Assembly: GCA_963457665.1 (NCBI GenBank)
Contig: OY735207.1
Span: 37,507,316 to 37,571,315, forward strand
Source: Thysanoteuthis rhombus
Taxonomy: Eukaryota > Mollusca > Cephalopoda > Oegopsida > Thysanoteuthidae
Direction of reading: 5' to 3'
DNA length: 64,000 nt
The first letter of the stretch is position 1. Each line of letters opens with the position of its first letter. The notes under the pieces were generated by a model. The model was not told the DNA's origin. It was given only the letters and a program-made list of their open reading frames with translations, and did not search any database. Of this stretch, positions 1,606 through 54,917 are shown piece after piece. The translations under genes were made by a program, and so were the position numbers.

Positions 1606-1750
1606 TTTCGTAGAAAAATGTAAAACACATGTTCATCAAGGATTTGGCAGGGGTGTAGTCCTCAGCCATATGGCATTCGAATAAAACCACAGAGAAGTAC
1701 TGGACGAGGCGAAAGAAAATTTGCTCATCCACTTTCTTGTTATGCACTCT
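1606..1750 (-). CDS. KIAA0513: Third coding exon of the KIAA0513-family gene (145 nt)
   Basis: The acceptor TTATTTTTCAG ends at 1751 and the consensus donor GTAAGTAA starts at 1605. The frame reads 48 codons plus one base: it begins RVHNKKVDEQ, then FFRLVQYFSVVLFECH, then AKSLMNMCFTFFYE. Human KIAA0513 has RCNSKCVSEQ, then FYRLVQSFAVVLFECH, then AKNLMTMCFTYYH in the same place, directly after the SAQ that corresponds to the NSQ ending exon 2. Codon phase at the 5' junction is 0. The exon leaves a phase-1 junction. The following human segment (helical, then the C-terminal part) was not found in bases 1-1605, so further exons must lie left of the window. Confidence 0.93.
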
Positions 1751-2889
1751 CTGAAAAATAAGAAAAATTTATTAGTACAATTTAAATCATGGTGCGAAGA
1801 AGTTATTATTGCATCATTTGTTGAGACAACTGAACTTTCTTTTTAGTGTTGCTGATACTGTTACCATAATGGTTTGGTCAACACATTCTGTAGGCTTCTT
1901 TAGGTGTATGATCAGTAAGGAAAGAGAAAAGTCTCTTTTCTTCATGGAATATGATGGCAAACAGAAAATGGTAGCTTATATACCACCTGGCACAATTCAT
2001 TCCCAGCAATGCAAGCCACATAAATTACACCTATTCTTTGCTACCCGTGTAACTTGAGTGATTCTAATCTATACATGACGGTGTTCTCCAATTCCTTTTC
2101 TGGTGAGCAAAGAAAAGTACACAATTATAAAATCCATACTGGCCTGACAATTTGATGCATACCACTTCTCTCAATTTTCTCACTCTCCACTGGGGTTCCC
2201 TTCATTTGGACCTCATGCCAGAGACAGTAACCTATGCCCTTCTCTCTCCAGATATGGTCTGCCATACTTGATTTTCTACTTTCCCTTTGGATATGGCTTT
2301 CTTATGTTTCTTGGATCTAAATTCAAAAGGACTAGTTTTTTCTCAATAACCTTTCCCACATTTGCATGGGATGTTATAAATGAAATTTTTGTCAAACCCT
2401 TCCCCTATAAGTTTATTTGCATTTTCAATATTAGTAGGATCTATGGTATTTCCATGGTAAAGCTTTGTAATTTGGGAATAGAATACTAAATATATTTTTA
2501 CAGTAATATCATTAATTACAATGAACTTAATAACATAAGACTTTATTATTATGAATGCAGATAGTTCTAAATTTTGCTTAATGTTTTCATCTGGCTATCA
2601 TTATCTAAAAAAATCCTGTCCCAAAGTAATTACCATAAGTAACTTCCTCTGTATTCTAATGATATGGAAAAACATGTCATATTGACAATATTGGTGGATG
2701 GCTCATGCATTTATGAATTTCTTTCAATAGAAAAACTCACAATTAAGTGAAGTATTTGTGACAAGTTCAACAGCCCAGGTTAAAATGGTTTCTGGGATAA
2801 TCATTAGGACTTATCATACAATTTTATTTGATCAGAGCAACAGATGCTATTGAGTAAGCTTGTTTACTGTGTGACCATTACATCGACAA

Positions 2890-3175
2890 GGTTTTTTGGC
2901 AAAACATCACTCAGGTCTTTCTATTTCCCTACTTCAGATTTGTTCCCTGTAACAACAGGCTTTTCCCAAAGATATTTCAGAATGTGGATGAGAATGTGAT
3001 GAGGCAGCTGACAGCAATCCCAAAAGAGGATTTTGCAGACTTTTTTGAAAAGTAGAAGGTGGTATAAGTATGTTTAGTTCTGAAGGGACTAAGGTGCCAT
3101 TACACCAGGTTGGCTATTTTTTCAATATTGATAAATGGCTGGATATTTTCTGGACAGGCCTCATATACTACTCAA
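2890..3175 (+). pseudogene. Mariner transposase C-terminal relic 2
   Basis: Same family as the copy at the left edge. It reads FPKIFQNVDEN, RQLTAIPKEDF and FFEK before a stop, then the shared 3' tail including CTGGATATTTTCTGGACAG at 3139-3157. The rest of the transposase is absent, so this is a truncated, inactive copy. Confidence 0.6.
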
Positions 3176-6100
3176 GTATTATTCTTCACTTGAAGATCTG
3201 GAAAATTGCATGAGGATTAACTCAGTCATTTTTGAAAGGAGGAAAGTTAATAATATGAATTACAGAAAATAAATATTAGTTTACCTATTAAGAAAAAGAA
3301 TGTCAATGCAAATAAGAATCAGTGAAATGAAGATAACCTCACGAGCAAGGAATAAAAAAAATGTATGTCAAGTAGAAATTCTGCTCTTACTGGCTCTGAA
3401 AAGCTTGCATATTGATCTGAAAAATCTCTTGATTTAGCCAGACTTAATACAAATACACGAATCATTCATTTTTCTTCTACAATAATTTCCACTTAAGTAT
3501 CATGTTTGTTAATGTCGAAGGAATTGATTTTATTGATAGCCTCTGTTCACGTGGTCCCATCTGACTTGGCTCTGAGTAAGACTTATTAGGGAATTATGAA
3601 AAGTGACAACATAAGTCTATTTCTAATAAATAACTATGTGTCCAGATGTCAGATTTAGCAAGAGAATGACCCAGTATTCTAACCGTTTTAATCTTCATTT
3701 GGCATCATAGAAGTATAGTTACTAGTTGTATAAAAGAGTCTGTATTGGCTGTTTTATCTGTACTTTCTTCTTTGTAAGTGAGAGAGCATGTGTGTTTTTT
3801 TTTTTCAATATAAAAATGCATTAGGTTATTACATATGAAATGTTTTCGAATAGTAAGATGAAGGATGATGTAAGAAATGAAAAGCGATAAGTAATTAATC
3901 AAAATTGACGCAATGATCCTCTAAGGATAATATGCAATTCCTTTAAAAGTCTTCTAGTGGTTGAAAGTTCAGTCATTTTAGAGCAATCAATACGCAGAAT
4001 ACCGCCTATTGAGAGACTGTTGAAGTAGACACTTTCCTGATTCTCCAAATCTCTATTTGAATCTGAAATCCCAGCTGAAATACTTGATAGGAAGATGTTA
4101 TGACACTGATTGAAAACCTGATTACTTAATATCGAACTATCTTTTCGATCACTAGAAGAAATACTGAACAATTCTTGTTTGCCACAAGAATCTTCTAATC
4201 TAGTATATTTGTGACTAAAACCAAACAAAAAAGCAAATTCTGGCATGAACTCCAAATGACAGTAATTTCATTCAAACTTGGTATATTCTTTTTCTCCTAC
4301 AATGAACTTACATATACATATAAGTTTATAACTTTCAAACACACATAGTTATATACTATTAAGGCATGAATTTTCACTTGTTACAATGATATGCTAAAGA
4401 AATTTTACGGTAAAATTTTCATAGCTAATTCTAAGAAAATATCATACATTTGTTTGAATAATTTTATGCATTTTGCAAATGTGTTATTCAATTGAAAGGG
4501 GACTGCAATGGCCTAATGTTTAACAATGCAAGAATGGAACCAAGAAATCAAGTTCAATATCAGCTGAGACAGTTTGCATTCACTTTCCACTAATGGGAGA
4601 GGCATCAATCCATTCCATTTCTCCCTCAGCTATGAGTAAATAAAAAAAAAAGTAGAACAGGTTATTAAGCCATGATTGGCAACCAGTCGAGGGAAAGATA
4701 CCTGATTCAAGGCAAGGGAGTTGAGCCCCCTTAAGGCAGCTGATTGTCAACTTTCACGTCCTTCTGGCAGTTCCTACAGCCAAGTTGATGTGCAATGTAT
4801 CACTCTGCATTTCTTTGAACTACACAAATGAAGTGCATAGGGGTTTTCTATCAATTTGACATCCCTGGATATCCATATGCTTCACCCTGGCTTTCACTCA
4901 GGAGAAGTCATTTCATTGTCTGAGGCAAAAGAAAGCTTTCTATAAATATCAATCAAGGTCTGAAATTGATGGATCATTTTGCATGAAGTGTTTTTTTTTG
5001 TTTTGAAAAAAAAAAAAAATCATAATATTGGGGTTGATAATTTCCTATACATTTTCATACTACTCTTAAGATTGTATGCATATGGGAACTCTTCTTTTAG
5101 GGTGAAAGGCTTGTTTTGGCCTGGATTATATTGATTTGCTGGAAATTTAACACATTGTATTGCTTTTGCTTGTATACTTATGTGCAAGCCTATATATCAC
5201 ATTACAAAGAAAAGACAATGTAAACAGTTTTGCTTTGCATACATTAAAAAGATAGAAATAGTTTAGTAAGCTTGTGTTGCAACGCGTCAACAGATGGTAC
5301 ACGAATATAGCCTTATATCAGTTTGTATGGTATGATAAAATGTCCCCAGAAATTACAAATCAGACAGGAAATAATTAATCTATCTCTAGCTGTGTTTTAA
5401 AAGATTGTCTCAAAGATATCAGTCACTTCCACAGATAGAGACCTGAAGGCTCCTCTGCTAATATTTATTTTAATAAGTGTGCATTGTCCTTAATGTAATT
5501 TCATTTGATATTTTGATGCATTTAGAACTACCCAAACTACGTCCATGTCAAACAAAGGCTTGCTGTGAACTCGCAATACAAATATGGTTACCAAATTTAA
5601 GCCAAATTTTTCATGTTAATAAACTGGGATATAGAATCATAAAAAGAACCATTGTTTGCTTTTCTTGTTTTATCTTCACTCAGATTTGTTTACTTAACTT
5701 TCTAGGGGATAAATCTCCCTTTCAATGTTACAGCCCAAAAGTGTATAAAATCTGTTCGTATTAACATAAGTCTTTGGTTTCTTGTTATAATTCAATGTTT
5801 GACACACACTTTATGCTTTCCAGGCTCCGCTTAAAAAAAGATGGTTCTAAGATGAAAAACATCAATAGATAATTCAGATAATAGATATAGAAGCAAGAAT
5901 ATGGCTCCTGTCTTTCCGAGTCCTTGATTATGACCACCATAATGGAAACGCTTCTTGTATGGCAAGGATTGTATGAATGATAATTTAAAAAAACAAATAT
6001 CAGGCTCAGTTGTGCTTTGTATATAAACTGACGGATAAACTTGGAAGTGTGCATTTCCTCTGTCAAAACTGTTGGCAGAGGTAGATATATTTTTCCAATA

Positions 6101-7233
6101 AATTTTATGATTTGATTTTGATAAATTGCACACAAGCAAAATAAAAGAGAATAAAAATGGGAGGAGGATGAAATGATGTGACCGCCAAGTCCATTTCCCC
6201 CACTGTACTTTGAGTACAAGTGAGAGACTAAAGAAAAAAAAATTACAATTTGTTGCTCAAGGTTTGTTCTGGCTTTCAGAAGTCCAATTGAAATATATAT
6301 TCTTAGAGAGGAAACATGCTAAAACTATGTCTTTGTATTATATAATAGAAGAATAATAGAAGATAATGATATTCGTCTATTGACGTCTCTCCAAGTCTTC
6401 AGGAGTAAACGTAGGGTTATATTGACCATTTCTTATCCCAAACATTGATATTGCAGGCTTCAAGAAAAAAAAATGAACTCTGGAAAGAACATTAATCATT
6501 TAATATCTCAATGAAATTTTATTGAGGGGTGGAAAATAGGCTGTGAAGGAATCAATTAAATATTGGGGTGTGAACATGCGCAATTGATCCCTTTATGTCG
6601 TAGTTATATGCCCACATCACACAATATTACCAAAATTTCATGTCAGTTCTCGCAATATTTCCAAAAGTTCTCAATCAATTTCAATTAAATTTCATGGAAT
6701 AATGTCCGATAGGCTACAGAAGATCTGATTAAATTTCACTGTGGATCCATGCACAATTACTTCCTTTGATAATAGTGTTGGCAGAGGTATGCACTCTCTG
6801 AGTGCTTTCTAGTTAAAATCCAGCCAGAGAGGAGTAGCAGCAAGCTTAAAGATGATTACAGAGGATTATCATTTTGTTAATTATTGTTAAATGATTATTG
6901 GATAATCTATGTATCTTTCAAATAATCGATTGGACAATTTTAGCAGTGCGTAGTACAGTAGAATGTGTGAAAAATTGCTTTTGATGTTCATGAGAGATAA
7001 TTTCATTTTGTTAAAAAAAATAGCCTTCCTTCTTTCTATGATAATCTGTTAGACAGCTTGCAAGAACTGAAAGATCAAGCAAACAAAAAACAGTATGTAT
7101 CATATTGTAGATATTAGCTGGCCTTTGATCTAAAATTCTCACCGGATAATATTTCATCTATATGAATGATAGAGAAGTGAATTGACAGGGAAGGATGTTG
7201 TGTTGAAAAAGAAATATTTGTTGAGTGAAATAA

Positions 7234-7725
7234 ATGCTCATCAGGCATCATAAATCCACTGCTGGACAAAGGCCTTTCAAATCTCTTTCTATGACAAGTG
7301 TGATTGCGCTAATCTCTACCATGTCTTGCCAGCAAGCTCGTTTATCTTGTCTCTCAATCACGTATCTGGTCTCTACTTACTGTGTTTGCAGTACCATAGG
7401 CTCTAATCGCTTAGCCTTTTGTTCCATCTGTTGTCCCTTCTTGCTACATGCCCAGCCCATCTCCTATTTTGTTGTATAATTATTTGTACGATATTCTTCA
7501 TCTACCATGATACTCTGTTAGATTCTTGTTGATGTCTTCTATAGCTAAGAGTTATTCCTGATATTGTCTTTTGTACTATTTCGAGTTCATTTCGAGTGGT
7601 CTCATAAGTTTCCAGGTATCACATCCATACGTCATAGCTGGTATTATATTTTGATTGTGTAATTTATGTTTTGAGTTTATTGGCTATAAGCTTTTCACTA
7701 TGTCTCTACTTATACCAAATGCTGG
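7234..7725 (-). mobile_element. LINE relic of a second family (antisense)
   Basis: Antisense sequence of the type GTCCGCTGCTGGACAnAGGCC: here ATCCACTGCTGGACAAAGGC at 7252-7271, then CTACCATGTCTTGCCAGCAA at 7316-7335. This is the usual 3' part of another non-LTR family, differing from the 15.5-kb LINE. No intact frame. A related copy lies at 49225-49500. Confidence 0.5.
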
Positions 7726-7787
7726 CTAGTGATAGAGAACAGATTCAAGGCCTTGTGGAATAATGTAAGTAGCATTGAGGAAAAGAA
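7725..7787. repeat. Short repeat shared with 58855-58918
   Basis: GTGATAGAGAACAGATTCAA and GGCCTTGTGGAATAAT recur almost unchanged 51 kb away (58860 onwards). Both copies sit at the edge of a LINE relic, so this is probably a retroelement end. Confidence 0.5.
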
Positions 7788-7798
7788 TAAAAATTTGT

Positions 7799-7800
7799 GT

Positions 7801-7836
<36 letters not shown>
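7799..7836. repeat. (TA)n microsatellite
   Basis: TA repeat with one GT interruption. Confidence 0.95.
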
Positions 7837-7837
7837 A

Positions 7838-8670
7838 AATGGAAGTTTATAAATTAGGGCAGAAAAGTAGTTTTGATCCAAAATTGTACTGCAGAGACCT
7901 TGGAGGTCAGTGCCACCCATTCTACATTATTTCGGGGGATAAGTTACCCTTATAGACAAGTTTTCGGACCCTAGGGTGCAGTCATTTTGGCAGCTATAAC
8001 ATGATAACGAATGAACATTCAGATATTCACTGGTTTTATAGAGATATCTTGAATAGAACAATCCACCTCCCACGCAATCTCTAAAAACTTTGAAAGTCTG
8101 AAACTTTTAAAATCTTTCTCTCAAAAATGCTATGAAAGGTTGGAGGTCTAAAAGAGCAGGAACACGTATGATTGAAAGAAAAAATATTATTGATTTTTCT
8201 CTTTTGGAATTTGAACTTGGTCCATCTATTCCATCCACTGTGATTTCTTATTTGGCCATTATAGTGACCAATGATTTTTTTTTCTTTCTTTGAAATAAAT
8301 GAATCTGGAAATATAAACTTATAAATAAAGGCAGAAAAGTAGTTTTGACCTTAAATTGACCGGTAGGGATCTCAGAGGTCAGTGCCACCTTATAGTCTAG
8401 TTACCAATGGAGACTAATTTGCAGTGACTAATTTGCAGTGACTAGATTGCAGCCATTGAGTCATCAGTTTTTTAGTTTCAGATGCGTACACTAAGAAAGG
8501 TTTGTTTTTTTCCAAATAAATGAATTTAAAAATAGAAACTTACAGATTAAAGCGGAAAAGCAGTTTTGACGCTAAAATAACGGAGGTCAGTGCCACCTAT
8601 CTTATGTTAATCCTGGGGTAAAGTTATCACTATACGCAAATTAGCAGTGACTAGATTGAGGAGTCTATAA
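7838..8670. repeat. Three diverged copies of a 150-250 bp repeat
   Basis: Units starting near 7838, 8300 and 8519 share AAACTTATAAATTAGGGCAG-like openings, AAAAGTAGTTTTGA, GGAGGTCAGTGCCACC and GCAGTGACTAGATTG. They are head-to-tail on the plus strand and unequally spaced, so a locally amplified interspersed repeat rather than a regular satellite. No coding potential. Confidence 0.6.
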
Positions 8671-9065
8671 GACATATACATGCAAGATAACAAACAATGT
8701 TGAGTTTTCTAGTTTAGATAGACACTCTAATCCCAAAACATAGTTGCGTATATAAACTTAACACATGCAAATTTATACATACGTCCAGCAGCAAAATCCA
8801 TTCACCATTAACTGACATTGACAGCACAAATCTATACTGGGAAATGTGGATAATTCTATTGATTGTCAAAGCCAGAAGAATTTCTACCGTTTATGGAATT
8901 TTTTTTTTTTCTTCTTTTTACTCTTTAAGATTGGCAAAGAATGGAAGCTTGATGTCTCAGAGGAAAACTGAAGAGGAAATTCTTCCCAGAATAGTTCTGT
9001 GCTAGATAGTTTACCAAGAAGCATATGGCAGAAATCTGGTCACAAAAGAAAGTCAATGTTCCGAA

Positions 9066-9524
9066 AGATAAGTTTCCTGAGGAGGGAGGGAGGAAGGGAG
9101 AAGATGGGTGTCAGGGTGAGAGGAAGAAAATGAGAGAGAGAGAGAGAGTGTGAAGTGTGAGGACAGATGGATATTTGAGAGAGAGAGATCGATGGTGGGG
9201 CAAAAGGAAGATAGAGAAGAGGTGAGCAGAGAGAGTGACGGAGAGAGAGAGAAGAAAGAGAAAATTCATAGGGGATAGAGGAAGGAAGAGAAAAGGCAAG
9301 GGATGAGAATAGATTTATTAGTAGGAAGGAAGAGAGGGAGAAAAAGAGAATGAAAGAGAAGCTGTAAAATAGGAGAGAAAAAGAAGGTGACAGGGAAGGA
9401 GGAAAGAGCAGGAGATCCTCAAGTCAGAAAAGAAAAGGAAAAAAGGGAAATTATTCTGAGAACAAAAAGAGAGAATAGAGAAGAACAGAAAAAGATAGAG
9501 AAAGAAAACTACGGAATAGAAACA

Positions 9525-9583
<59 letters not shown>

Positions 9584-10729: not shown

Positions 10730-10730
<1 letters not shown>

Positions 10731-10822
<92 letters not shown>

Positions 10823-10854
10823 GTATATATATATATGTGTGTGTGTGTGTGTAT
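10731..10854. repeat. (TA)n(TG)n compound microsatellite
   Basis: About 50 bp of TA, then alternating TGTG and TATA blocks. Confidence 0.95.
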
Positions 10855-13337: not shown

Positions 13338-15360
13338 TATAAGAATCCATGAATGTGTGTTTACCTGAGCTTACTTTTTGAGGTAACAGGTAACTTTACA
13401 TTTATGCATAATCAGTGCTTTCCAAGTCTTTGAAAGATTGGTTTCCATTTTTTTTCATACTTCTTTGCTTATCAATTTAAAAAAAAATTAATCTATAAGA
13501 AATCATCAATCATACTTATGTTTTCATTTCTTATTGATTAAGTTTTAGATTTTACTGGTACCATTTTTTTTTTTTTTCTAAAATAAATAATATCTTTCTG
13601 GAATTGCATAATGAGAAAATGGCACACGGGATATACAATCATTTTGTTGCAGGTAGATGGGTCACCAGTTGTGAGGTGAATTTGCTGATGGGACAATTCA
13701 TCGCTAACTACAAGAAATACTAAAGATTAAAAATGCTAAAACCTAAGTTCAATACAATAGATATCAAAATATTGAAATTTAAGATTATTTGTGGTCGCTT
13801 TTTAAAAAATAAGATTAAATAAAAGCTAAAAATAAAGTTTAATACATTAGATATTGAAAAAGCCGTCCATAAGTTTATTTTCCATAAAATCTAGCCTAGC
13901 ATGCATGATTTTTATACCTTCAATATATCAGAGCCATCAGCATTTTTTTTGTATATAAATAGTTCTTTACCTATAACGTTGTCTGTTCTTATCTCTGAAG
14001 AGATAAGCTATAAGGTAGCCAAATTACTGCGTAGGAATCTTTAATGAAATTTTTCCAATGACTATTGTTCGAACCAACGAACATGAACAAATTAAATCAG
14101 ACAACGGAGATAAATTGTCCTATTGACAAATTCACCAAACGGCAAATTGACTGGCGACCAGTTTACAGCAAAGAATCGTCCTAGCACTGGCACACAGTTT
14201 TGATGGCACTTAAGGAATCTCAGAAAAGTGCAAACACACATTCTTTTTTTTCTTTTAATACTAAGGACATTACAATAAAGCTTCAAATCTCAGCAAGTTT
14301 GCATGAAAACAAATCTATCAGGTAAGTAATTGAATTATAATATTATGATATTACTGAAATGCACTTTTTGATAGCATTTATAGCCTTTTTGGTTGTCTAC
14401 AAAAATATTAAGGTGAACAATTTTGTTAAAAATTAATTGCTATTCGTGACTATGTACCTATGTATTCAAGGAATTCTGAAAATTCAGAATTGAATTTAAA
14501 GCAATTTCTCAAGACAGTATGTTGAGTTCTGTGATGAAGTATTTCAAAACTTAGATGAGGAAAACATTTCTAAGATTAAGAAGTTACATTTTGAGATACA
14601 TTCATTTAAAACCTTATTTACATAAATGCATTCCCCAAAAGAAGATTTTAAGGCTGGAAAACTTCTTTTATGAATATAAAAGCTAATAATAATAATTATA
14701 ATAATAATAATAATAATGATGATGATAACAATAATAATAAAAAATAAGCTATCACTAAAGCAAACAACACTGAAAAAGCTATTAAGAGGCGCATGCCAAA
14801 GCGAAGCAAAATGTAAGTTAGCAAAAAGAATTTCTATAAAGAATTTTTACGGTCATAAAAAAGAGAAAATAACGTCTAATGCAAGCTTTTAAAAGGCCTC
14901 AAATATCAAGTAACATGCTGCTCTAGGAGAAATGAATTTGTATTTTAAATCTCTTCTTGCAGAGAAATTGTGTTGACTTTTGTAAGGTGCTGTTGATGCG
15001 TGAGAAACTAAATGATGTTGTTCTGAAAGTCGAAAGAAATACATTATGAAGAGTGGTTCAAGGATTTAGCCATGTACCATCTGAATGTTCATGAACAAAC
15101 TGAACAGTGTCCAAGAAAATTGATTATTACCCAATGTACCCTTTTTGCTTTGAATGGCAAATGAGAAATTGTTTCTGAAAATGGCTATCAGTGAAGATTG
15201 TTACATGAAAAAGTAAATTAGATGACTGTTGTGGCATGTGAATGCTAAAGTAAGATTGTTGGCCTTCGCATGAGCTTCAGTAAAACAAAGGTCATGAATA
15301 ACAATGGGGGTTTATATCAATATACTCCTGTCAGTTAAATAAAGGGTTCGGTTCGTTACT

Positions 15361-15496
15361 TCCCCACACCTACCAGATGATACCTGATGAAGGCCGTAGA
15401 GTACAACGGCCGAAACGTTGTATGAAAAACAACCAAGATGAGGATAGTCCGAATTATAATAGAAATGATAATAATACCTCATCTCAAAAATTCAGA
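15361..15496 (+). mobile_element. Penelope-like terminal repeat, copy 1, with hammerhead-like core
   Basis: Shares CCGAAACGTTG, ATGAAAAACAACCAAGATG and CTCATCTCAAAAATTCAGAG with the repeats at 45308-45520, and the latter half with 21955-22055. It contains CTGATGA (15384-15390), a 6-bp hairpin GGCCGT/ACGGCC (15392-15397 with 15406-15411) and GAAAC (15412-15416). This order is the core of hammerhead ribozymes, which are known in Penelope-like retroelements. An extra A before the hairpin and no clear cleavage triplet argue for decay or for coincidence. Confidence 0.5.
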
Positions 15497-15504
15497 GATA
15501 CATA

Positions 15505-16113
15505 ACAAACATGTCAGAAATAAAAGTACAGCTATCAAATCGAAAATGCAAAGCTGGACAAAGTAGACCAGTACATCTACCTAGGACAATGAATCTCCAT
15601 GAAATCCTCAAAAGATGAAGAAATCAAGGGAAGAATCACTCTAGAATGGCAAGACTTTGATTGAGCAAGTTCAACCTTCAAGAACAGGAAAATCCCATTA
15701 GTCCTCAAAAGAACTATGGAACTGAAAGCTTGGAACCTAACCAAGAGACTGACCCACAAACTGAGAACTATGCAACATGCACATGACAGAATCATGCTCA
15801 ACCTCAAACAGAGAGATCACAAGACAGCACAGTATATTAGGGTGAAAAAAGGGGGTCCTAGGTATCATAGAAACCATTAGAAAACTCAAATAGCAACGGG
15901 CTGGTTACATCGCCAGAATGGCAGATGATGTACATCACGACTCACAACATGGATCTCCAGAGATCATATATAGAACCAAGCTGGCAGAATATGAGATGGA
16001 GAGACAAACTTGATAAGTTCAGAAAATACCCCCACAATAGAGAGATGGAGCGAATCCTGAGGAAAGTATGTCCAAGGATGGACAATAAAAGACTGAAGAT
16101 GATGATGATGATG
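15505..16113 (+). pseudogene. RTE-like LINE 3' relic
   Basis: The frames contain QYIYLGQ, DEEIKGRITLEW, LKRTMELKAW, LRTMQHAHDRIML and RDHKTAQYIR, followed by GWLHRQN-like and WRDKLDKF stretches. These are the ordered C-terminal motifs of RTE-type endonuclease-reverse transcriptases (YLGQ, LRTxQRxMER, RDxxTxxxIR, WAGHxAR, RWRDxLxKF). The element ends in a (GAT)n tail at 16098-16113, as such LINEs do. Many stops; 5' truncated. It starts just after a Penelope-like repeat at 15361-15496. Confidence 0.75.
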
Positions 16114-18134: not shown

Positions 18135-18470
18135 TTCATCATCATCAGCCTTTTAGTGTCCGTCATTGGATATAGACCTTCCCCAGAAATCGACAGATGT
18201 CTCCATCAAGGATATAGCAGAGCCAGTACTTTCTAAATTTGTCTAGCTTATCATGCCATCTTACTTTCCGTCGGCCACAATTTTGCATATGACCTCTGGG
18301 GATCCATGTTGTGAGTTGCGTTGTCCAGTGTTTGTCTGATATTCTTGCAACATTTCCAGCCCTTTGCCATTTGAGTTTGGAATTGCTTGTTGCTTATTTT
18401 CTCTAGTGCAAAATTTTCAGTACGTTCGAAACAAAAGATGGATTGAGAATTGTGAGAAATCAATTTATAT
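18135..18470 (-). mobile_element. LINE 3' relic, antisense to the plus copies
   Basis: The reverse complement of the same LINE 3' region: a CATCATCAG tail at 18138-18146, then GTCCGTCATTGGATATAGAC and the ATCCATGTTGTGAGTTGCG stretch that mirrors ACTCACAACATGGATC of the 15.9-kb copy. Inactive and 5' truncated. Confidence 0.65.
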
Positions 18471-26251: not shown

Positions 26252-26345
26252 CTGGGAGTTGACGTATCTGGCAAACCACAATCTTCCGGGCTGGTGTTGG
26301 CACAGTTCACCAAATTTTGCTTTCTCTGTTTGTGAAATCTCTTCA
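26252..26345 (-). CDS. KIAA0513: Second coding exon of the KIAA0513-family gene (94 nt)
   Basis: A short exon found by reading the minus strand for splice sites. A pyrimidine-rich stretch ends in TATAG just upstream (AG at 26347-26346), and the donor GTAAAG starts at 26251. Its first base completes the split codon AA|T from exon 1 (Asn). Then 31 codons read without a stop, with EKAKFGELC followed by GRLWFARYVNSQ. In human KIAA0513 the matching stretch reads EKAKFGEYC then GREWFARYVSAQ, directly after the VEKIF motif that ends exon 1. Match of sequence, order and phase makes this a confident exon although it is too short to show as an ORF. It ends in phase 0, which fits exon 3. It belongs to the SBF2-like core. 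Confidence 0.92.
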
Positions 26346-32930: not shown

Positions 32931-33775
32931 TTGAGCAGGTTTTATGTTAAATCCTCTCCTCCTGACTCATGTAATCATTTTATATTTTTACATGACTAAT
33001 CTGTTTATTCCAATGTTTATCAAGATTGTTTTTGAAAGAGTTCATATATCTTGAACTCACTATTTCATTAAACAGACTATTCCATTGGTGCATTATGCAG
33101 ACATCGAAACTATACACTCTTGGTGAGACATGAAAAAATATGAATGATAAGGAAATTCTTTTCGAAAATTCTGAGGTAAGATATTTATATTCTGGTTTTA
33201 TAATCAAATTTCAAATCATCTGTGGCAATGATAACTTGATACAGACTAAATTGATGATGAAAAGAGATGAGGATATTATTTTGCTCAGTATGATATCAAA
33301 TATGTCTAATGTGCAATGCTTACCCTTTACTATTCTATGCTTCATGAAGAATAGATACTAACACCTACTATCAATAAATACTATAATACTAAGGAATAGT
33401 ATGCATTGTATTTTTGAGCTGATGGAATTAGTTCCAACATACATTTAGGAGTAATAGAAACCAGATCAATAAACAAGATAATTTGCTAAAATTCTGATAT
33501 CTATACAAGTAATCCTCAAAATATTATATGTAGAAGTTCTTAAACTGATATTCATATAAAAGTCAAATAAAGAATAAATACTTTAAAGAATGATAGAATA
33601 ATGAAAGACAAAAAGAGAAGAAAAAGTAACAGCCCATGAATTTCCAAATTCAACTAAAGAAAACAAAGGGAAATGAATGTCTGATGCAAAAATAAGAAAT
33701 TTTCCAACATTATCGGCTAAGAATGTTATTTTTTTTCTGTCTGATAAAAATTGCTTTCTTGTCTTATGTGAATGG

Positions 33776-34515
33776 AGTGTTTCATTTTGTCCAAAGAGAA
33801 TCGAGTGTTTCATTTTGTCCAAAGAGAATAGACTGTTTTCATTTTGTCCAAAGAGAATAGAGTGTTTTCGTTTTGTCCAAAGAGAATAGAGTGTTTTCAT
33901 TTTGTCCAAAGAGAATAGAGTGTTTTCATTTTGTCCAAAGAGAATAGAGTGTTTTCATTTTGTCCAAAGAGAATAGAGTGTTTTCATTTTGTCCAAAGAG
34001 AATAGACTGTTTCCATTTTGTCCAAAGAGAATAGACTGTTTCCATTTTGTCCAAAGAGAATAGACTGTTTCCATTTTGTCCAAAGAGAATAGACTGTTTT
34101 CATTTTGTCCAAAGAGAATAGACTGTTTTCATTTTGTCCAAAGAGAATAGACTGTTTTCATTTTGTCCAAAGAGAATAGACTGTTTTCATTTTGTCTAAG
34201 GTGAATAGTGTTTTCATTTTGTCCAAAGAGAATAGACTGTTTTCATTTTGTCTAAGGAGAATAGAGTGTTTTCATTTTGTCCAAAGAGAATAGACTGTTT
34301 TCATTTTGTCTAAGGTGAATAGAGTGTTTTCGTTTTGTCCAAAGAGAATAGAGTGTTTTCATTTTGTCCAAAGAGAATAGAGTGTTTTCGTTTTGTCCAA
34401 AGAGAATAGAGTGTTTTCGTTTTGTCCAAAGAGAATAGAGTGTTTTCTTTTGTCCAAAGAGAATAGAGTGTTTTCGTTTTGTCCAAAGAGAATAGACTGT
34501 TTTCCTTTTGTCTGA
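33776..34515. repeat. 29-bp minisatellite, about 25 units
   Basis: Unit ATTTTGTCCAAAGAGAATAG + A(G/C)TGTTTTC, mostly 29 bp with some 28-bp units and CTAAGG variants. The last units (34500-34600) decay into GTCTGATCAGAATGG-like forms. The period is not a multiple of 3, so no long frame forms. Short open stretches over it are artefacts. Confidence 0.95.
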
Positions 34516-35414
34516 TCAGAATGGAATGTTTTTACTTTGACTGATCAGAATGGGGTATTGTTTTTGTTCCTGATTAGAATAGGTTTTCTTTTATCTTGTG
34601 GGAATATTTACGTTTTGAGAAGAACTTGCTGAAATAAGCAATAGATTAATCTATCCACTCTATATTTTGAAAGCTATTTTCTAATCAGATTGTCTTGATA
34701 GGATTAGAAAAATTCCAAGTTGAGAATTGGCCAAAACAGTCATTAACTAAGAATATCAAGAATTGATGTGATCAAATAAAAAAACATTATTTGCAACCGA
34801 AGTTAAGAGATTACAGGATAGGCAGTATTTCCAATACCGTTTTATAGCTTACAATACTAAAAATACAGTCCTTGTTATTATATTTTCAACTTACCTGACC
34901 CAAATAAGTGAGTTTAATCTGGATGACACATGAATGTGGTCTTGTGCAAACAATTAGCTTTGTTTACTGAATAACATGCGACAACATTCTTTGTTCTTGG
35001 CATCACATAGACCAAAGGATTCCAAGCACTACCACGGGTTGATGGGATAATTCAGAAGGCAGAAAATCATTAGGATGTCAATTAGGGATTGATTGACCTT
35101 TGTGCGTCAGAATGGATCAGAATGGATCACATAATCTAGGAAATAATAAGTATATTTGGAACTGGTTTTAACATTTGAGATGCAATCCTAACAAAGCAGA
35201 GAAATGAACTGAATCAGAGAAGCGTGATGATTTATAATTAAACTAATCCATTTGCAATTAAACACAGTTCTTCTCAAAGCTAATCAACCACATTCCTCTC
35301 ATTAGAAATTTCAAATGATTAATGAAAAAAATGGTTATTTCTTTTTTATTTTTTGATAAAAATATCTTCATTGAAGTAGTTCCACTTTCAATTGTAATAA
35401 TGTTACCTTGATTC

Positions 35415-45244: not shown

Positions 45245-45307
45245 TTGTTGACCATGGCTTCATGACAATGATATCTTAATTGATATTTTGAGAGATAAGT
45301 GGTCAGA

Positions 45308-45520
45308 TTATTTCTATTGATATTCGGACCATCCTTATCTTGGTTGTTTTTCATACGTTTCGGCCGTTACACTCTACGGCCTTCGTCAGATATCATCTGG
45401 CAGGTGGCCGTAGAGTGCAACGGCCGAAACGTTGCATGAAAAACAACCAAGATGCGGATGGTCCGAATATCAATAGAAATAATGATAATACCTCATCTCA
45501 AAAATTCAGAGATATACTAA
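45308..45520. mobile_element. Penelope-like repeat, head-to-head fold-back (copy 2)
   Basis: Two copies of the repeat seen at 15361-15496 face each other. The left arm (45308-45380) and right arm (45406-45482) are inverted repeats of about 75 bp with few mismatches, around a short centre (TTCGTCAGATATCATCTGGC). The left copy keeps CTGACGA-hairpin-GAAAC on the minus strand; the right copy has lost the first part. After the right arm the single-copy tail continues (CTCATCTCAAAAATTCAGAG). Inverted partial copies at termini are characteristic of Penelope-like insertions. Confidence 0.55.
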
Positions 45521-47891
45521 GTGGTCACATATTTTGCATTAATCAACAAAACTATGAATACTGTAAACATTTAGCTATTTCAGACTTTAGGCCATGTATT
45601 CTTCCTATTTGTTTCAGGGCCACTGCTGTCCTTTCAAGTGCCTGGTTGTGGACCTCTCCCCAAAGAAAAACACAAAAATATGATCCCTAAACCAAAGAAA
45701 TATACTTCACAAACTTTGCAAAGATGAAATAAACCAAAGAAAAATATACCATAAAATGAATACATACAAATAAGAAAACAGAAGTATACAATTAGTCACA
45801 CAAAAAGAGAAAAAAAAGTCACAAATGTTTGCAGAGACAGAGATATTCATGTATATAAGCAATTTTAAGTAGTTGTGGTAGGCTCAATAAAACTTCTCAA
45901 GGAGGTTGGTTCATCCTTGAAACTAATTCATTAAGCTGTACAACAAACAATGCTTAGTTGAAGCCCAAAATTAGAGCGTTAGCTCTCAACCCAATAAAAA
46001 GTATTGCATAGTGCTTTGCTCAACAATTTGCTATACAAAAGAACACAACAAAGATGTAAACATATAAGCATACAGTTATGATACAGAGACAATTGCTACA
46101 AAATCTTTTAACAGCCCCAGCCTTTTACAAAACTTAGTGAATAGCATCCAAGCAAAAAAATTTCATATTCTGTTGATGCAGTTCTGGTTTCTGTAGATGC
46201 TGCTCTTTTCTCTGTCTGTTCAGGTATGATGGTTATCACTACTCATGCTATCTACTCAGTTCTTCCTCTGTTTTATACGAAACAATCCACTGTATCTGCT
46301 TCTAGAAACCTGCTTACCAGTGGAGTTTCCCCAAGAAAAGACCACCACACACTGGGTGTTTAGAACAGAAAATGGAAAAGCTTTCATGCACTTGATAAAG
46401 TGGCACACATTTGCATTTCCTGGTTGCAAAATTGTTAATAAGGTCATCTTCTGACAGTTTCTGAGCAAATTCTGCATTGATGCTGACGACAGCAAAGAAC
46501 TTGAATGTTTCTATGCCACTGATGAATGCAGGTATGTTTTGATAAGTTCAAGTTTTGAAAAACTTGCCCCAGCAGAGACAACTGTAATTGGGAGAGTTAT
46601 TGCAATCCTCAGAGCAATCCAGAGGTTTGAATAGAGGTTTTGAAGTTGGTTCTCCTAGAAAATTGTTGACAAAATCAGATCTAGTACTTATTATAGTAGT
46701 TAATACCAATGGCCTTAAACACCAGGCCATAAACAGGTACCAGGCCACAAAGCATATGCTTCCGGGCCTCAAGGAAATGATAGGATTTGGTGATGAAATA
46801 AAAGACGTAAATTTTTTTTGATCCTTATATCAAATGAGTTAGAAATGAAATTGAGTGTATTGGTCACTTATAAGTACCATAGTTGACTTTTCACCTATAT
46901 TGCAGTCATGATTAACACCCGCTCCTACCAGATGCCCAGTGGAAATATTGTTGATATTGAATTGATCTGGGGTGCCATAAAAGCTGGAGACCACTGGTAT
47001 AGACAAATGTGATAGTCACCACTAAGAATAGATCACAAAAAATCTCAATCAAATTGAATTATTTTTAATCAAATTATAATGCATTGTATTAAAAAAAAAA
47101 AAAAAAGGTTTTGGTCTGTGACTTTAAGGCCTATGATTTTATGTCTGATATTCTATAAGTCCACAAAAGACAACGGTCATATTGAAAAAAAAGTAATTAA
47201 AGAAAACAATAAAAGCAAAAAGTAATGTTTTTTCTAATTTTGCAATAAAGGTGTTGTTTTTTTTTCTACTTGTCATTTTTCAACAAAAAGTAAATATTTA
47301 AGAAAAGATTTCCAAGGCTTTTTTTTTACTACTTGTATCTCTCAACTTGAATCAGATCCGAAAGTTACTTTTCTAATATTTTGAGAATTAACAACATACC
47401 AGCAAGCGAAGCACAAGCATCATCAAGGTGTTCCTGCTTCTTTCTCTTTTCTGCCCCCAACTCTTGCGGCTTTTTCCCTAAACTTTCTACCTTGTGTCTT
47501 AGAGAGAACTACCTGAGTTCAGCAGCCAGCACAGCCCAATGGTTTGTGATGAGAGGTGCCAGGGGCACCAAAACTAATTTTATTACTTTGAGAAATTATG
47601 AATATCTTGTATTACCTTCTTTATTTTTGTCTAAATGGTGCCTATTGTAATTATGAATCATGATTAAAAAAAAATAAAAATGTTCAACTGCTTTGGTGCC
47701 CCTTTCAGCATGTGATGCTGTACATGTAGCACGCATGTGCCTCGCAGTGACCCTGATTTGTTTAGCTTTTCTTTTTCATCCCATTCAAATGAATTTAGAA
47801 ACAAGAATACTATCATTCTATTCACAATCTGACTTAATGAAAGATTTGAAGCAAATATTCAATAATTCAACACTCTCTTCACGATCCTAAC

Positions 47892-48360
47892 TTTACAAAT
47901 GAACTCAATATTTGACTTATATTTCATGATATTACTAATGACCTCAATATTCCACTCATATTCCGTGATATTACTAATGACCTCAATATTCCACTGATAT
48001 CCCATGTTATTACTAATGACCTCAATATTCCACTCATATTTCATGATATTACTAATGACCTCAATATTCCACTCATATCCCATGATATTACTAATGACCT
48101 CAATATTCCACTCATATCCCATGATATTACTAATGACCTCAATATTCCACTCATATTCCATGATATTACTAATGACCTCAATATTCCACTCATATCCCAT
48201 GATATTACTAATGACCTCAATATTCCACTCATATTCCATGATATTACTAATGACCTCAATATTCCACTCATATTCCATGATATTACTAATGACCTCAATA
48301 TTCCACTCATATTTCATGATATTACTAATGACCACAATATCCCTTATATATTCCCTAATA
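47892..48360. repeat. 39-bp minisatellite, 11 regular units
   Basis: Units start at 47931 and every 39 bp to 48321 (ATTACTAATGACCTCAATAT, then TCCACTCATATTCCATG), with a degenerate unit on each side. As 39 is a multiple of 3 the array is open in three frames (EYEWNIEVISNIM on the minus strand). Lack of any upstream exon signals and sequence identity between units argue for a satellite, not a gene. Confidence 0.95.
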
Positions 48361-49224
48361 ACATCGATACTGACTTAACGATTAATAAAAGTCTTAACAG
48401 GTTTGGTGAGGGAGGAAGTTTACAAAGTGTTGACCAGTAGAAATGAATAACTCCATTAGCTTAAAAGCAAATTGACAGAAATACATTTACCCAATCTAAG
48501 ATTGAAATGGGAGTGCATTCTCATTGGCTAATCTTTGTATCCTTGGTAACCATTGGCTTTAAAAGCTATTTTGTGTGTCAAAGGACATTAAGAGAAAACA
48601 ATCGCTGTGTATAAAGAATGGTATACATCCATCTTGTGCGACAGAAGAATCATGGAAAATTTGATCGGAAATTAGAATGTAGCTTTCCGGGAAATATTTA
48701 TTGGCTTTGTACTGATTATTATTTGACTAACAGATGATATATTAATCCTACGCCATGTAAAGGTCACTGGCTTAGTATACAAACAATTTTCAGAGAAACA
48801 GGTATCAATTTACTTCATTTGATCGTTTAAACAATGCACTTTAGAAACAATAATTATATGAAGGCATTTTCAATGGGTCATTATTAAACCTGATCAAATT
48901 ATCAACATAATACAAGCATCTAATTAAACACTTTGGAACCAAAATAGTTTTTATCTGATCCATTGCTAGGCTAAGAAGACCAAGAAACAAAGAAATTCTC
49001 ATGAGATATCTCGTCAGCTTCTCTTTAGAGGTCAAGCCACACAGAGTGAGTGAAATTAGATCACCAATCAGACCAAACAATATTCAATAAAAGATAATGG
49101 AATATTCTTGTAGGATATCAAGTAGGCAAAATATCTTGTCAGCCTCTCCAAAATCATCATAGCTTTCAATGCTTTTATCATCATCTACAAATTGTCTTAA
49201 ATATTGTATGAAATGAATACTCAC

Positions 49225-49500
49225 ATTTCCATATACGGATATCATTGTAAGTCCGCTGCTGGACAGAAGCCTCTCCAATCGCCTTCCATAATGACTGCAG
49301 CTCTCTACCATGTTTTACTCAGCAAACCTTTCTATCTCATCTTCCCCTCTGTGACTGGTCTTTCCTTAATGTATTTTTCTGTCCAATGGACACCAATCAA
49401 TTACCTTTTTAGTCTATTTCTGGTATTTTTATTGCTAATTGTCAAGCCCATCCCCATTTTAAAAAAAATATATTTTGTCTTAAATCTTTCACTCTGGTTT
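49225..49500 (-). mobile_element. LINE relic, second family, copy 2 (antisense)
   Basis: Contains GTCCGCTGCTGGACAGAAGC at 49250-49269, then CTCTACCATGTTTTACTCAG, matching the order of motifs in the 7.2-kb copy. Short and decayed. Confidence 0.5.
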
Positions 49501-50079
49501 TTTTAATGGACACTCATACACTCACTTATATGCATCAAATAATGATGCAATTATTTATGCCTGAATAAATTATACATTTCAATACATGCATATACACACA
49601 GCAACAGTCACTTGACACCACACCGTTTATGTGTCCGTATTTAGCCAACCAATCTTTCGCTTGGCTTGTTCATTGGTCAGTCGTGCCAGCCACTTAGAGA
49701 TCAGTTCGAACAGTCAAGTCAAAAGCAAGCAAAACTGAGTGAAGCAAAGTACACAAACCAATGACCGATCAATGCAGATTAGTCGTTTCGATCTACATTT
49801 AAGACTAATAATCAATAGTCTCTCCTATGTTGTTGGCTGTGACTGACTGATTAACATTTACACCTCTTGGCGAATTCAGGTATGGATAAGGTAGTATCAT
49901 CTTGATGGAGTTGATTATGGCCTGGTTTAGTTGAGGTAATAAGATGATCTGAGGGTTTTTTTTCATTATGTGACATAATTAAATATTTTTTTAATAAATC
50001 TGAGGATACGATTGGAGAAGAGCTGATGCAATATTTTGATAATAGTCAGAGTAAGTTGGAGGGGGGGAGAAAAATGGAA

Positions 50080-51052
50080 AGGAAAAGAGAGAAAAAGGAG
50101 AGAAAAAGAAAAAGAGGATAAGGAGAGACAAGAAAGAGAGGAAAAAGAGGGAAAAGGAAAGAAAGGAAAAGACAGAAAGAGAAAGAAGAAGACAGAAAGA
50201 GAAAGAAGAGAGAAGAAAAAAGAGAAAAAGAAAAAAGAAAGAATGAAAAAGAAAAAGGAAAGAAAGAAAAAAGAGAAAAGGAAATTTTTAAAAAGAGAGA
50301 AAAAAAGTGAGAGAAAAAGAAGGGAAGAAAGAAGTGAGAGAAAAAGAAGGAAAGAAAGAAGTGAGAGAAAAAGAAGGAAAGAAAGAAGTGAGAGAAAAAG
50401 AAGGAAAGAAAGAAGTGAGAGAAAAAGAAGGAAAGAAAGAAGTGAGAGAAAAAGAAGGAAAGAAAGAAGTGAGAGAAAAAGAAGGAAAGAAAGAAGTGAG
50501 AGAAAAAGAAGGAAAGAAAGAAGTGAGAGAAAAAGAAGGAAAGAAAGAAGTGAGAGAAAAAGAAGGAAAGAAAGAAGTGAGAGAAAAAGAAGGAAAGAAA
50601 GAAGTGAGAGAAAAAGAAGGAAAGAAAGAAGTTAGAGAAAAAGAAGGAAAGAAAGAAGTTAGAGAAAAAGAAGGAAAGAAAGAAGTTAGAGAAAAAGAAG
50701 GAAAGAAAGAAGTGAGAGAAAAAGAAGGAAAGAAAGACGTGAGAGAAAAAGAAGGAAAGAAAGACGTGAGAGAAAAAGAAGGAAAGAAAGACGTGAGAGA
50801 AAAAGAAGGAAAGAAAGACGTGAGAGAAAAAGAAGGAAAGAAAGACGTGAGAGAAAAAGAAGGAAAGAAAGAAGTGAGAGAAAAAGAAGGAAAGAAAGAA
50901 GTGAGAGAAAAAGAAGGAAAGAAAGAAGTGAGAGAAAAAGAAGGAAAGAAAGAAGTTAGAGAAAAAGAAGGAAAGAAAGAAGTTAGAGAAAAAGAAGGAA
51001 AGAAAGACGTGAGAGAAAAAGAAGGAAAGAAAGAAGTGAGAGAAAAAGAAGG
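50080..51052 (+). repeat. 27-bp polypurine minisatellite and GA-rich tract
   Basis: From 50307 a 27-bp unit (GTGAGAGAAAAAGAAGGAAA + GAAAGAA) repeats about 27 times with almost no length change. Variants GTGAG, GTTAG and the preceding GAC or GAA form runs, showing recent block duplications. Upstream, 50080-50306 is irregular GA-rich sequence. The plus strand is nearly all purine. Because 27 is divisible by 3, long ORFs appear in several frames (KEVREKEGK, SERKRRKER and FFFSHFFLS repeats), but these are by-products. The array lies in the host intron about 1 kb past the exon 1 donor. Confidence 0.95.
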
Positions 51053-52034
51053 ATAAGGAAGGAAAGAGAGTGTTTACCTCAACCAATGCCATACTCTAAC
51101 TAGAAACTAAAAAAAAGATATTAAAAAACGAAGGGGGAGCTACTTTGGAATTCTGTACAAATATTGAATTACTTCCCCTAAAATTTTTATTGACTGTTCG
51201 TTCAAAACCTCTTTTCAGGCAGAATAACGAAAATCTTTCTCAGTCAGAAACAAATAACTGGATCTGCCTCAAAATTTAATCACTGTTTTCTTAACCCACA
51301 GTCCACTCTTCCTCGAGAACACTTGGAGATAGACCTGAGTGAATACATAAATGTATGCAAAAAAATGGAAAAATATCTCTTAATCGAGAAAATATTTTTG
51401 GATATCGTATGAGCAGATAGAGAGATGGATCCTTGCGGTACTGGATGGGATAATGGAAAGTCTATAGCCACACTGAAGAGATGTAATACATCGAAAAAGC
51501 TGTCTGTGGATGACACAATAATATATATATATATCACTTATTTCGTTGGCAGAGGTAAACAGAAAAAAAACGAGAGAGAAAACAGAAAAACAAACGGGTA
51601 CCATTATCTTATTTTTTTCATTTTTTTTTTTTTTTTTTGTCGAGCACATGATGATTTGACAAGTTCAAGATATATTCGGACCATGACACCCATGGTTGAG
51701 AAGTCCCTCAGATCTAGGGGAAGCATCAAATCCAACAACAGATCTTGAAAGACTGATGATGACCAACTGGAAGTTTGAAGAATACAAGTCACAAAGATAA
51801 CAGGTCTTTTTTTTCTCTTCCATTTGAAGTTTTTCAAGTAAAATATTCAAAACAAGTAGTTAAAGGAAATTTTTTATCGTTGTAATAAGTAGGCTGATCT
51901 TCACATTTGGAAGATTGGAGCACTACGATCTTCTTACCTTGCATTCGTTGACGTCCGTTCGGTCCTGCATCTGACTAAATGAAATTCAGAAAATATCAAG
52001 AATGAAATGCGGAAAAGAAAAAAAAAACACTTAC

Positions 52035-54772
52035 TTCAACAAGAAGATTTTCTCCACAAACATCTTCATGAACTCCATGCACTCGAGAGTGATGTCGTCA
52101 GGTTGGCTTTCAATGCTATAGGTAGAGTCCCAGGACTGTTCCGATTCCATAGACAGAGAACGGTGGTAAGGTTCTCCACCAAATTCATCTCCTGATGAAT
52201 CGATGCTCGAATGTCGGCCGGCCTCTCCGCCGTAACCTCCGTCAGAAGAATCGGGACTCACTCGGCGACGGTCGGTTTTTCGTTTGGCAGCGGTCGGTTT
52301 ATGACGCCTTTCATTATATGCCCGCTGATCTTCCTCATCGAACGAAATCAGGTCTCCCATAGGCATCATCGTCCGTCTCCTACTCGCTGTATCTGCAGCC
52401 TCCAATGAAGGGGCTTCTGTTTGTTCCTCAGGTGGTTCAACGTAATCGTCGAATAGCATTTCATCTACGGTGCTCGACCTGCGACGCCCAGAGGCATATT
52501 TTCCTGACCGCTTATCAGACATCTCTCTATCTAGTTCTTCTGATGAAGGGGATCGAAGTATACGCTCAGAGGGTTCCGATAATCTGCCACTGGTGACCCG
52601 TTGGCGGTCACTCAACTCCCTGTCTGTGTATTCTCCTAACCGAGGTGCTGATCTACGACCGGGCCGGTCAATAGGCTGGAAAGCAGATCTGTGTCTGTCA
52701 GCAGGAATGGGAGTTGGTTTTGCAATGTCGTGATCCGGTCTATGGCGGTAATAATCTGATTCTCGGTCCGCCCTATGTGTCTGCCTTCTGGCTGGTTCGG
52801 GTGCTACCTTCTGCGTATGCTTATCAGGTAACGGGGGTGCTGCTCTGTGACTGTGGTAGTATTCAGCCTCTGATGAAGGCGACCGAAGGACACTGCGTTC
52901 TGGATCATCAGTTACCCTCTGAGTTTGCCGAGAAACTCTGGGTCGGTCAGCAGGTTCCGGAGATGAATGCTGTTCATAGTAATCTGAACCCGATCTTTGG
53001 CCACGCTGGGAAGCAAGTGGAGGTGCAGTTCTTTGAGCGGTTTGCCGTGATATAGGTTCATCAAATGATCTCTGACTGTGGCGTTCAATAGACTCTCGAT
53101 CTAATCTTTGTCCATATCGGTCCGATTGGTCGTCAATAGATCTCTGACTGTAACGTTCGATTGAGTCTCTTTCTAACCTATGACCATCTTGTATAGATCG
53201 CTGACTATGAAGTTCAGTTGACCTCTGACTTCTGAGCGATGAGGTGGTCTTTGAACCTATAGAATCGTGGTAATCTTGGTCTACTCTTTGGCTGCGTCGT
53301 TGTGGTGGTTCGGGCGATGATCTTTGGCTTCTTCGTTGGGCAGGTATGGGAGATGACCGCTGGCTACGGCGCTGTGCTGGTTCAGGACCAGTTCGCGGTT
53401 GCCCAGCAGCGCGCTGGCTAAGTTCAGCAGCTTCTTGATATCGTGGATCACGAGGATCAACGAAGCTTGATTTGTGTGGATCAGATAAATCAGTGGCTGA
53501 TCTGTGTCGATCAGCTGGGTCTATACCCGACCTCTGCGGGTGTCTGCCCGAGTGATCAAGAGGATCCTGACCAGGCCTCTGGCGGTCTGAGATCTCTTGA
53601 CCTTTAGGTCCATATCGATCCACTGATTCTTGGCTAGCTCTTTGACCACGGTGGTCAACTGGCTCTTGTCCAGACCTATGGCGTTCAGTAAGTTCCTGAC
53701 TTCCTCTTGATGTGCGACGAGTTGTTGGCTCCTGACTTGGTCTTTGATCTCTGTGGCGTTCAATTTGATCCTGTCCTCGTTCAGTGATACTCAGATCTTT
53801 TCCAGATCGTGATAATCGGCGTTCAACTGGCTCTGGCTTTGATCTCTGTGTTGGTGAAGACCTGGAACTGTGGCGTTCTGTTGGCTGGGGAGAGGCTCTT
53901 TGTCTGTCACTTGGAGTTTTTTGTGCTTGCCGTTCTGACTGAGGTTGGGGTGTTTTTCGACCAGGAGCAGTTGGACGATCACTAGGACCTCCTGGTCTTT
54001 GACCACGACGCTCTCCTGGCTTTTGCCTTTCGGCTGGAGTGGGAGATGACCTTTGTCCTTGTTCAGCAGAAGGAGATGACCGTTGACTTTGTCTCTCAGC
54101 AGCAGTTTTTGGGATGGGTCTTTCCGCGGGCTTCTGGCTTGGATATCTTTCTCCGGTTGGCTGTCCGGGTTTTTGTGCAGGTTTCGGTTGACCGGAGCTG
54201 CCTATTCGAGATTCAGGCGGAGCATCTCGTAAAGTCTCGTCTTGGGGTGTGCCACTACCATTTTGATGTGTCTTAGGATCTTGATCTCTTAAATCTCTCC
54301 GAGAAGCAAGAGGTTCTGTTTTTTCGGGCACTTTATGTGGGACACCAGTTGTTGGTGGAGGGGTTGATTTCAGCCCTACTGGGACACCGATTCTAGGGGT
54401 GTGAAGTCCTTGTTGCCTGGCAAGTTTCGGATCAGGCAGTACAGGGGGAAACCCTTGTTGAGGAGTGATTCCCCGTGGCTGGTTGCCTGGAAGTACAGGG
54501 GGAAAACCTAAAGGACGTTGTTGCCCTTGAGGTGTAGGATGCTGTGGTGGTACGTTTCTTGGTGGATTCCTGTTAAAAGCCGGCGGGGGCACAGATGGTA
54601 CTTCTTCACCTTTTATTAAAGAGTCAACTTTGTTGGAAAGGTCACTAAATATGCCGTCTTTTTTGGCAGAAACTGAGCTAAGAAAATTAGATGTTCCCGT
54701 AAAGAAGCTGGAACCAAAGCCGGCTGTAATAGGATTTGTTGGAGCTTTCTTCCCTAAGAAACCGAAATCCAT
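52035..54772 (-). CDS. KIAA0513: First coding exon of a KIAA0513-family protein (912 codons + 2 nt)
   Basis: By far the longest non-repetitive open frame in the window. The start ATG at 54772-54770 has A at -3 and G at +4, and an in-frame TGA lies three codons upstream, so the N-terminus is well fixed. Residues 1-57 are an ordered-looking Phe/Gly/Ser segment (begins MDFGFLGKK). Residues 60-140 are Pro-rich with PPVLP motifs. Residues 140 to about 790 are low complexity, rich in S, R, P, Q and E, with repeated RRSQRSSP, ERHSQRS and PEPAxR units, and look disordered. Residues 805-912 resemble the start of vertebrate KIAA0513: a DLISFDEED motif near 807, a Ser-rich acidic stretch, then the core opening EFMKMFVEKIF, comparable to human DFMRGYVEKIF. 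The open frame reads through to a TAA at 52031, but a consensus donor GTAAGT begins at 52034 and joining there gives the family sequence. Function is unknown; the human protein is brain-enriched and has reported signalling and cytoskeletal partners. Confidence 0.88.
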
Positions 54773-54778
54773 TCTAAC

Positions 54779-54784
54779 TCACAT
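54779..54784 (-). promoter_or_regulatory. Start-stop upstream ORF 2 (ATGTGA)
   Basis: An ATG followed at once by TGA sits 12 nt upstream of the main start and in frame with it (ATG TGA GTT AGA ATG). Start-stop elements of this type are known to stall or pause ribosomes and repress downstream initiation. Its TGA is also the in-frame stop that fixes the protein's N-terminus. Use in vivo is inferred only. Confidence 0.5.
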
Positions 54785-54800
54785 CCGCACCTCAACAATA

Positions 54801-54809
54801 TCACACCAT
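54801..54809 (-). promoter_or_regulatory. Minimal upstream ORF 1 (Met-Val-stop)
   Basis: In the 5' UTR segment the minus strand reads ATG GTG TGA, a two-codon upstream ORF 35 nt before the main ATG. It has C at -3 and G at +4, so initiation would probably be moderate. If used, it would lower translation of the main frame or make it depend on reinitiation. Confidence 0.45.
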
Positions 54810-54917
54810 GGGTTTGGAAACGATTCGAAGTTACCCTGGAAAGACAAAAATAAAAAAGAACAATATCAAATATGGTGAACATAGCAAAACATTATAATAA
54901 GAATATCCAATATCTAT

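Follow-up and report, generated by a model that had tools for sequence, protein, structure and literature searches.

KIAA0513, called Krang in zebrafish, belongs to a protein family that is conserved across animals (PMC11302925). According to this zebrafish study, the product of the krang gene comprises 424 aa and its mRNA is located near the cortical granules of the egg. In krang mutants the cortical granules form and are poorly released after egg activation, and the authors state that the action of the SBF1/2 domain needs more investigation (PMC11302925). Binding of KIAA0513 to KIBRA was found by two-hybrid assay and co-immunoprecipitation (PMC13339755, citing Lauriat 2006). No functional study of an invertebrate member of the family was found in our literature search. 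Here we describe a stretch of 64,000 nt from the squid Thysanoteuthis rhombus (hereafter the window; C10:37507316-37571315 in a 2.73-Gb assembly of 514 contigs), which very probably holds the 5' part of the sole KIAA0513/Krang gene detected in this cephalopod genome.

Gene structure within the window

A first-pass annotation had drawn three minus-strand exons between positions 54835 and 1606. All three are present, with AG acceptors and GT donors throughout, and join through phases 2 and 0, with phase 1 at the final donor, into 992 aa without a stop (Table 1). The two exons said to be shorter than 150 nt measured 94 and 145 nt, the introns put at about 25 kb measured 25,689 and 24,501 nt, and all five core motifs that had been quoted were found in the 992-aa translation. 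With a generic splice-site matrix, the acceptors of exons 1, 2 and 3 scored 15.3, 12.4 and 14.3 bits and their donors 8.6, 7.9 and 9.5 bits. The 913-codon frame of exon 1 is an outlier in the window; the next three start-codon frames (348, 249 and 199 aa) all fall within a single tandem repeat. CpG observed/expected is 0.77 in exon 1 versus 0.38 in the entire window, which is depleted. An in-frame TGA (54781-54779) stands immediately 5' of the exon 1 ATG, and since the exon begins at a splice acceptor, an additional 5' exon probably lies further upstream.

Table 1. Features of the squid KIAA0513/Krang gene. Locations are window positions, or contig positions where preceded by C10.
Feature	Location	Strand	Description
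Exon 1	54835-52035	minus	acceptor 54835, ATG 54772, 2738 coding nt, phase-2 donor 52035
Exon 1 product			Arg/Pro/Ser/Gln-rich long N-terminus, then conserved-core start ITLECMEFMKMFVEKIF
Exon 1, 5' untranslated part	54773-54835	minus	
Intron 1	26346-52034	minus	25,689 nt
Candidate 37-nt micro-exon	51938-51974	minus	60 nt past exon 1 donor; sequence evidence only
Exon 2	26252-26345	minus	94 nt, phase 2 to 0, encodes EEISQTEKAKFGELCQHQPGRLWFARYVNSQ
Intron 2	1751-26251	minus	24,501 nt
Exon 3	1606-1750	minus	145 nt, phase 0 to 1, encodes RVHNKKVDEQIFFRLVQYFSVVLFECHMAEDYTPAKSLMNMCFTFFYE
Exon A	C10:37449294-37449150	minus	tblastn 68.2 bits, fitting phase
Putative exon B	C10:37446693-37446625	minus	tblastn 28.9 bits, fitting phase
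Exon C	C10:37444873-37444779	minus	tblastn 40.4 bits, fitting phase
Likely last exon	begins C10:37441158	minus	reads EKQKLLKDNILYSKEN-stop

Identity of the gene

For comparison we used a presumed human KIAA0513 sequence, which we take to be the human protein. Its length of 411 aa equals that of human isoform a (PMC11228693). Over the N-side block, from VEKIF to MCFT, 58 of 106 positions are identical to residues 85-190 of this presumed human sequence (E 2e-32 with the database size nominally set to one million letters). This agrees with the assignment to the KIAA0513 family that had been made from the letters alone, which is reinforced by the exons found further downstream. The protein-to-genome comparison that had been proposed as a check gave the same picture: in a tblastn search of the window with the presumed human protein, exons 3, 2 and 1 were matched in order and on the same strand with 71.2, 43.5 and 30.4 bits. 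Among 40 dinucleotide-shuffled versions of the window no score exceeded 27.7 bits, so that exon 1 taken alone is barely above chance.

A search of the 2.73-Gb genome with the conserved core gave six matches, all at this locus (11 candidates were scored; the small last exon was absent from the matches). The gene is an ordinary KIAA0513/Krang ortholog and apparently single-copy. Against PDB, the conserved 134-aa core returned five rows, all haemoglobin with E of at least 0.41, which we take as chance. No believable Pfam match was obtained for seven pieces of the window; CNOT1_CAF1_bind, DUF365 and TNF, which came up for this core and for one variant with the micro-exon, stayed far under the curated cut-offs (E at least 0.04) and were rejected. 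Relatives of exon 3 were sought in viral contigs (7 pattern stretches) and in a collection of genome contigs (88 stretches), and none was confirmed in either, as expected for an animal gene.

The C-terminal half beyond the window

The window match stops at human residue 190, and Pfam recognises SBF2 in the presumed human protein at residues 289-337 only (25.1 bits, cut-off 22.1). A Pfam hit to SBF2 had been predicted for the exons of the window, and their 992-aa product returned no family at E up to 10, because the part that matches SBF2 sits in the C-terminal half, outside the window. A Pfam check of a window product may thus fail solely because the decisive exons fall elsewhere. We searched the 200 kb below the low end of the window (7,500 of 200,000 bases being N) and found the C-terminal half on the same contig and strand, 58-66 kb beyond that end, as three exons and a likely last exon (Table 1).

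A 40-residue peptide of exon A, which lies 58 kb outside the window, matches Pfam SBF2 with 27.0 bits (cut-off 22.1). The score of putative exon B is near the shuffle maximum, and its call rests mainly on place, splice sites and phase. The candidate for the last exon scored 29, with the next at 23, as the best of 70 strong-acceptor candidates, and 29 versus 27 for the runner-up when any AG was permitted. Together the C-terminal block, from QPIWH..RFWNAAFFDAV to TFGQLGTFT..FGL..LC..FL, is identical to the presumed human protein at 59 of 106 positions and has 14 gap positions (E 8e-37 when just the two sequences are compared, and therefore not comparable with the E of the N-side block). For human residues of about 191-287 these 200 kb, with their 7,500 N, contained no convincing exon candidate.

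These exons bring the coding span to about 121 kb, so the window contains under half of it. The first-pass annotation had let the gene fill the whole window and rebuild the core of the family. In fact the gene extends about 66 kb past the low end, and positions 54836-64000 are unproven as part of it; what the window does rebuild is the N-terminus together with the first of the conserved blocks, with the C-terminal half lying outside.

The SBF2 match of the C-terminal exon A would also be expected if the gene belonged not to KIAA0513 but to the pseudophosphatases of the MTMR5/13 (SBF1/2) family. Such an identity is extremely improbable, as two blocks of the gene match KIAA0513 at 55-56% identity and no DENN or myotubularin domain was matched in the exons scanned with Pfam (1-3 and A). 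The best SBF2 matches of the genome (87.3 and 44.6 bits) lie instead on another contig, at C5:41188543-41190416, in a frame that differs; they are probably exons of an MTMR5/13 gene. The genome-wide SBF2 search reported these two places and missed exon A. That the locus might be a decayed KIAA0513 copy deserves next to no credence either, as no observation speaks for it: the 2738-nt coding exon is open, introns are retained, splice sites are canonical, the phases match across all six joined exons (the three of the window and A, B and C), and the core search of the genome showed no second locus.

A long N-terminal tail

The squid protein has 887 residues before the matched core versus 84 in human. 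Residues 61-880 consist of 14.6% Arg, 12.6% Pro, 12.4% Ser and 8.8% Gln, and contain the motif SQRS seven times (mean 0.18 and maximum 2 in 1000 shuffles). This Arg/Pro/Ser/Gln-rich tail of about 800 residues is probably disordered.

Exon 1 could be genuine and its long N-terminus still be mostly untranslated, if a downstream start such as the Met near residue 802 were used to give a protein of vertebrate length. Two tiny upstream ORFs before the first ATG, ATG-GTG-TGA (54809) and ATG-TGA (54784), would fit such a start, as would the similarity of MPMGDLISFDEE (residues 803-814) to human VPVGSLIDFGPE. This likeness is however insignificant, since 277 of 2000 shuffles of the target and 341 of 2000 of the query do equally well, and a frame that stays open for about 800 codons, retains CpG (0.77 vs 0.38) and repeats SQRS is typical of coding sequence. 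We consider a downstream start unlikely and translation of the long tail the better reading. The N-terminal LIDFG/LISFD resemblance was accordingly dropped for lack of significance. PPxY and LPxY motifs are ligands of the KIBRA WW domains; neither occurs in the protein encoded by the window or in the presumed human KIAA0513.

A candidate micro-exon

Shortly past the exon 1 donor lies a 37-nt segment with a G+C content of 0.54 and four CpG (Table 1). Its AG acceptor (6.9 bits) is weaker than the acceptors of the three window exons, and its donor (11.3 bits) is stronger than each of their donors. It runs from phase 2 to 0, identical to exon 2, and would leave the frame open if it substituted exon 2, while ahead of exon 2 it leads to an immediate stop. 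A second, weaker AG 4 nt further on (5.6 bits) defines a 33-nt form, which inserted before exon 2 keeps the frame open and adds 11 codons; without exon 2 this form breaks the frame.

At such scores no other acceptor-donor pair of 15-60 nt exists on the minus strand in 264 kb (7,500 N), and the plus strand has two. When the donor threshold is lowered to 8.0 there are 20 minus-strand and 14 plus-strand pairs, of which 2 and 0, respectively, have at least three CpG. We treat the segment as a lead, because these thresholds were chosen after it had been seen. It is possible, though doubtful, that positions 51974-51938 are a genuine alternative micro-exon, acting as a 37-nt poison exon or exon 2 swap, or as a 33-nt in-frame insert. 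If so, the 37-nt form in place of exon 2 would replace the stretch EKAKFGELC...WFARYV by QMQDRTDVNECK, and cephalopods would tune the KIAA0513 core via splicing, besides having a tail that the human protein is without. Brain-specific splicing of KIAA0513 is described for mouse, human and zebrafish, and that study gives a pre-vertebrate origin for exons of MAP2 and KIF2A only (PMC4438066); nothing links this splicing to the 37-nt segment.

Other features of the window and genome

Rfam gave no match in the window at the gathering score. Among 21 weak microRNA-family matches (E up to 3), the four alignments shown all fall on AT/GT repeats and were not believed, and one match within 15300-15560 was put down to chance. 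Of 394 stop-to-stop segments with 50 aa or more, 10 open frames were compared with Pfam, which gave three sub-threshold matches and none above a curated cut-off.

Two plus-strand repeat copies at 15384-15500 and 45406-45514 are 91.7% alike over 109 nt, and a palindrome lies at 45307-45483. The first copy reads CTGATGA-AGGCCGTAGAGTACAACGGCC-GAAAC, which resembles the hammerhead ribozyme core known from Penelope-type elements, and the second is without CTGATGA. No hammerhead was detected in the window by Rfam. Diverged copies of a single interspersed repeat (67-74% alike) lie at 15715-16113, 18136-18378 and 63033-63405. The first of these ends with an ATG-repeat tail and on visual inspection resembles a LINE 3' end; no Pfam domain was detected in the single open frame tested. 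A GA-rich tandem array at 50301-51061 (27/54-nt period, 97% matches) is open for about 250 codons on both strands and is most likely a simple repeat rather than a gene. Minisatellites are present in the introns and flank at 33770-34553 (29-nt unit), 47893-48340 (39-nt) and 62645-62987 (37-nt).

Elsewhere in the genome, mollusc-type haemocyanin units gave 52 matches. One tested unit was closest to two neighbouring units of PDB 6r83 (708.7 and 662.1 bits), presumably a squid (Todarodes) haemocyanin, which accords with a cephalopod origin of the DNA. On the minus strand of C25:56607734-56625492, nine matches of equal score follow head to tail at a spacing of 2174-2184 nt, and their 108-residue peptides are identical; over 2178 nt, copies 2-9 share 99.1-99.8% identity with copy 1. 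This array is either a recent amplification or an assembly artefact.

Possible function

The pre-mRNA would be spliced over introns of about 25 kb to yield a cytosolic protein. In this protein the tail of about 800 residues would precede a conserved core that is helical by the zebrafish model and, in its C-terminal part, similar to the SBF2 domain of MTMR5/13. The tail might serve as a tether, or as a phosphorylation and binding platform. Tentatively, the whole protein could act as an adaptor, itself non-catalytic, in the regulated secretion of granules or vesicles, with a neural use as in vertebrates. This is our best guess because of the granule phenotype of krang and the binding to KIBRA, carried over to the squid by analogy.

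Comparison with known systems

The squid gene shares the Pfam SBF2 stretch of its exon A with MTMR5/13 (SBF1/SBF2), whose DENN, GRAM and pseudophosphatase domains had no match in exons 1-3 or exon A. With human KIAA0513 it has both conserved blocks in common, gapless from VEKIF through EKAKFGE, as well as the SBF2-like C-terminal part. The human protein is without the roughly 800 extra N-terminal residues, and its residues 191-287, in the presumed sequence, had no convincing counterpart in the squid DNA searched.

The exon structure of zebrafish krang can also be compared. There, a change of GGC to GGT in a Gly codon creates a donor inside exon 3, 35 nt short of its normal end (PMC11302925). 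Because 35 nt amount to 2 nt and 11 codons, the regular exon 3 donor should lie 11 codons after this Gly in phase 0. Exon 2 of the squid gene finishes G-RLWFARYVNSQ, likewise 11 codons past Gly and in phase 0, so we infer that the zebrafish exon 3 donor has the position and phase of the squid exon 2 donor (directly after GRLWFARYVNSQ) and that a phase-0 intron position after FARYV..Q is common to both genes. This check is independent of the presumed human sequence, because it derives from the published krang change. The zebrafish guide site in exon 5 begins ATGTCACCAGGTGG (PMC11302925), which would place a zebrafish intron just before (E)CHQV, whereas squid exon 3 runs uninterrupted through FECHMAED. 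A squid ortholog with a very long N-terminus, an intron position probably shared with zebrafish and a candidate switch exon offers material for comparison.
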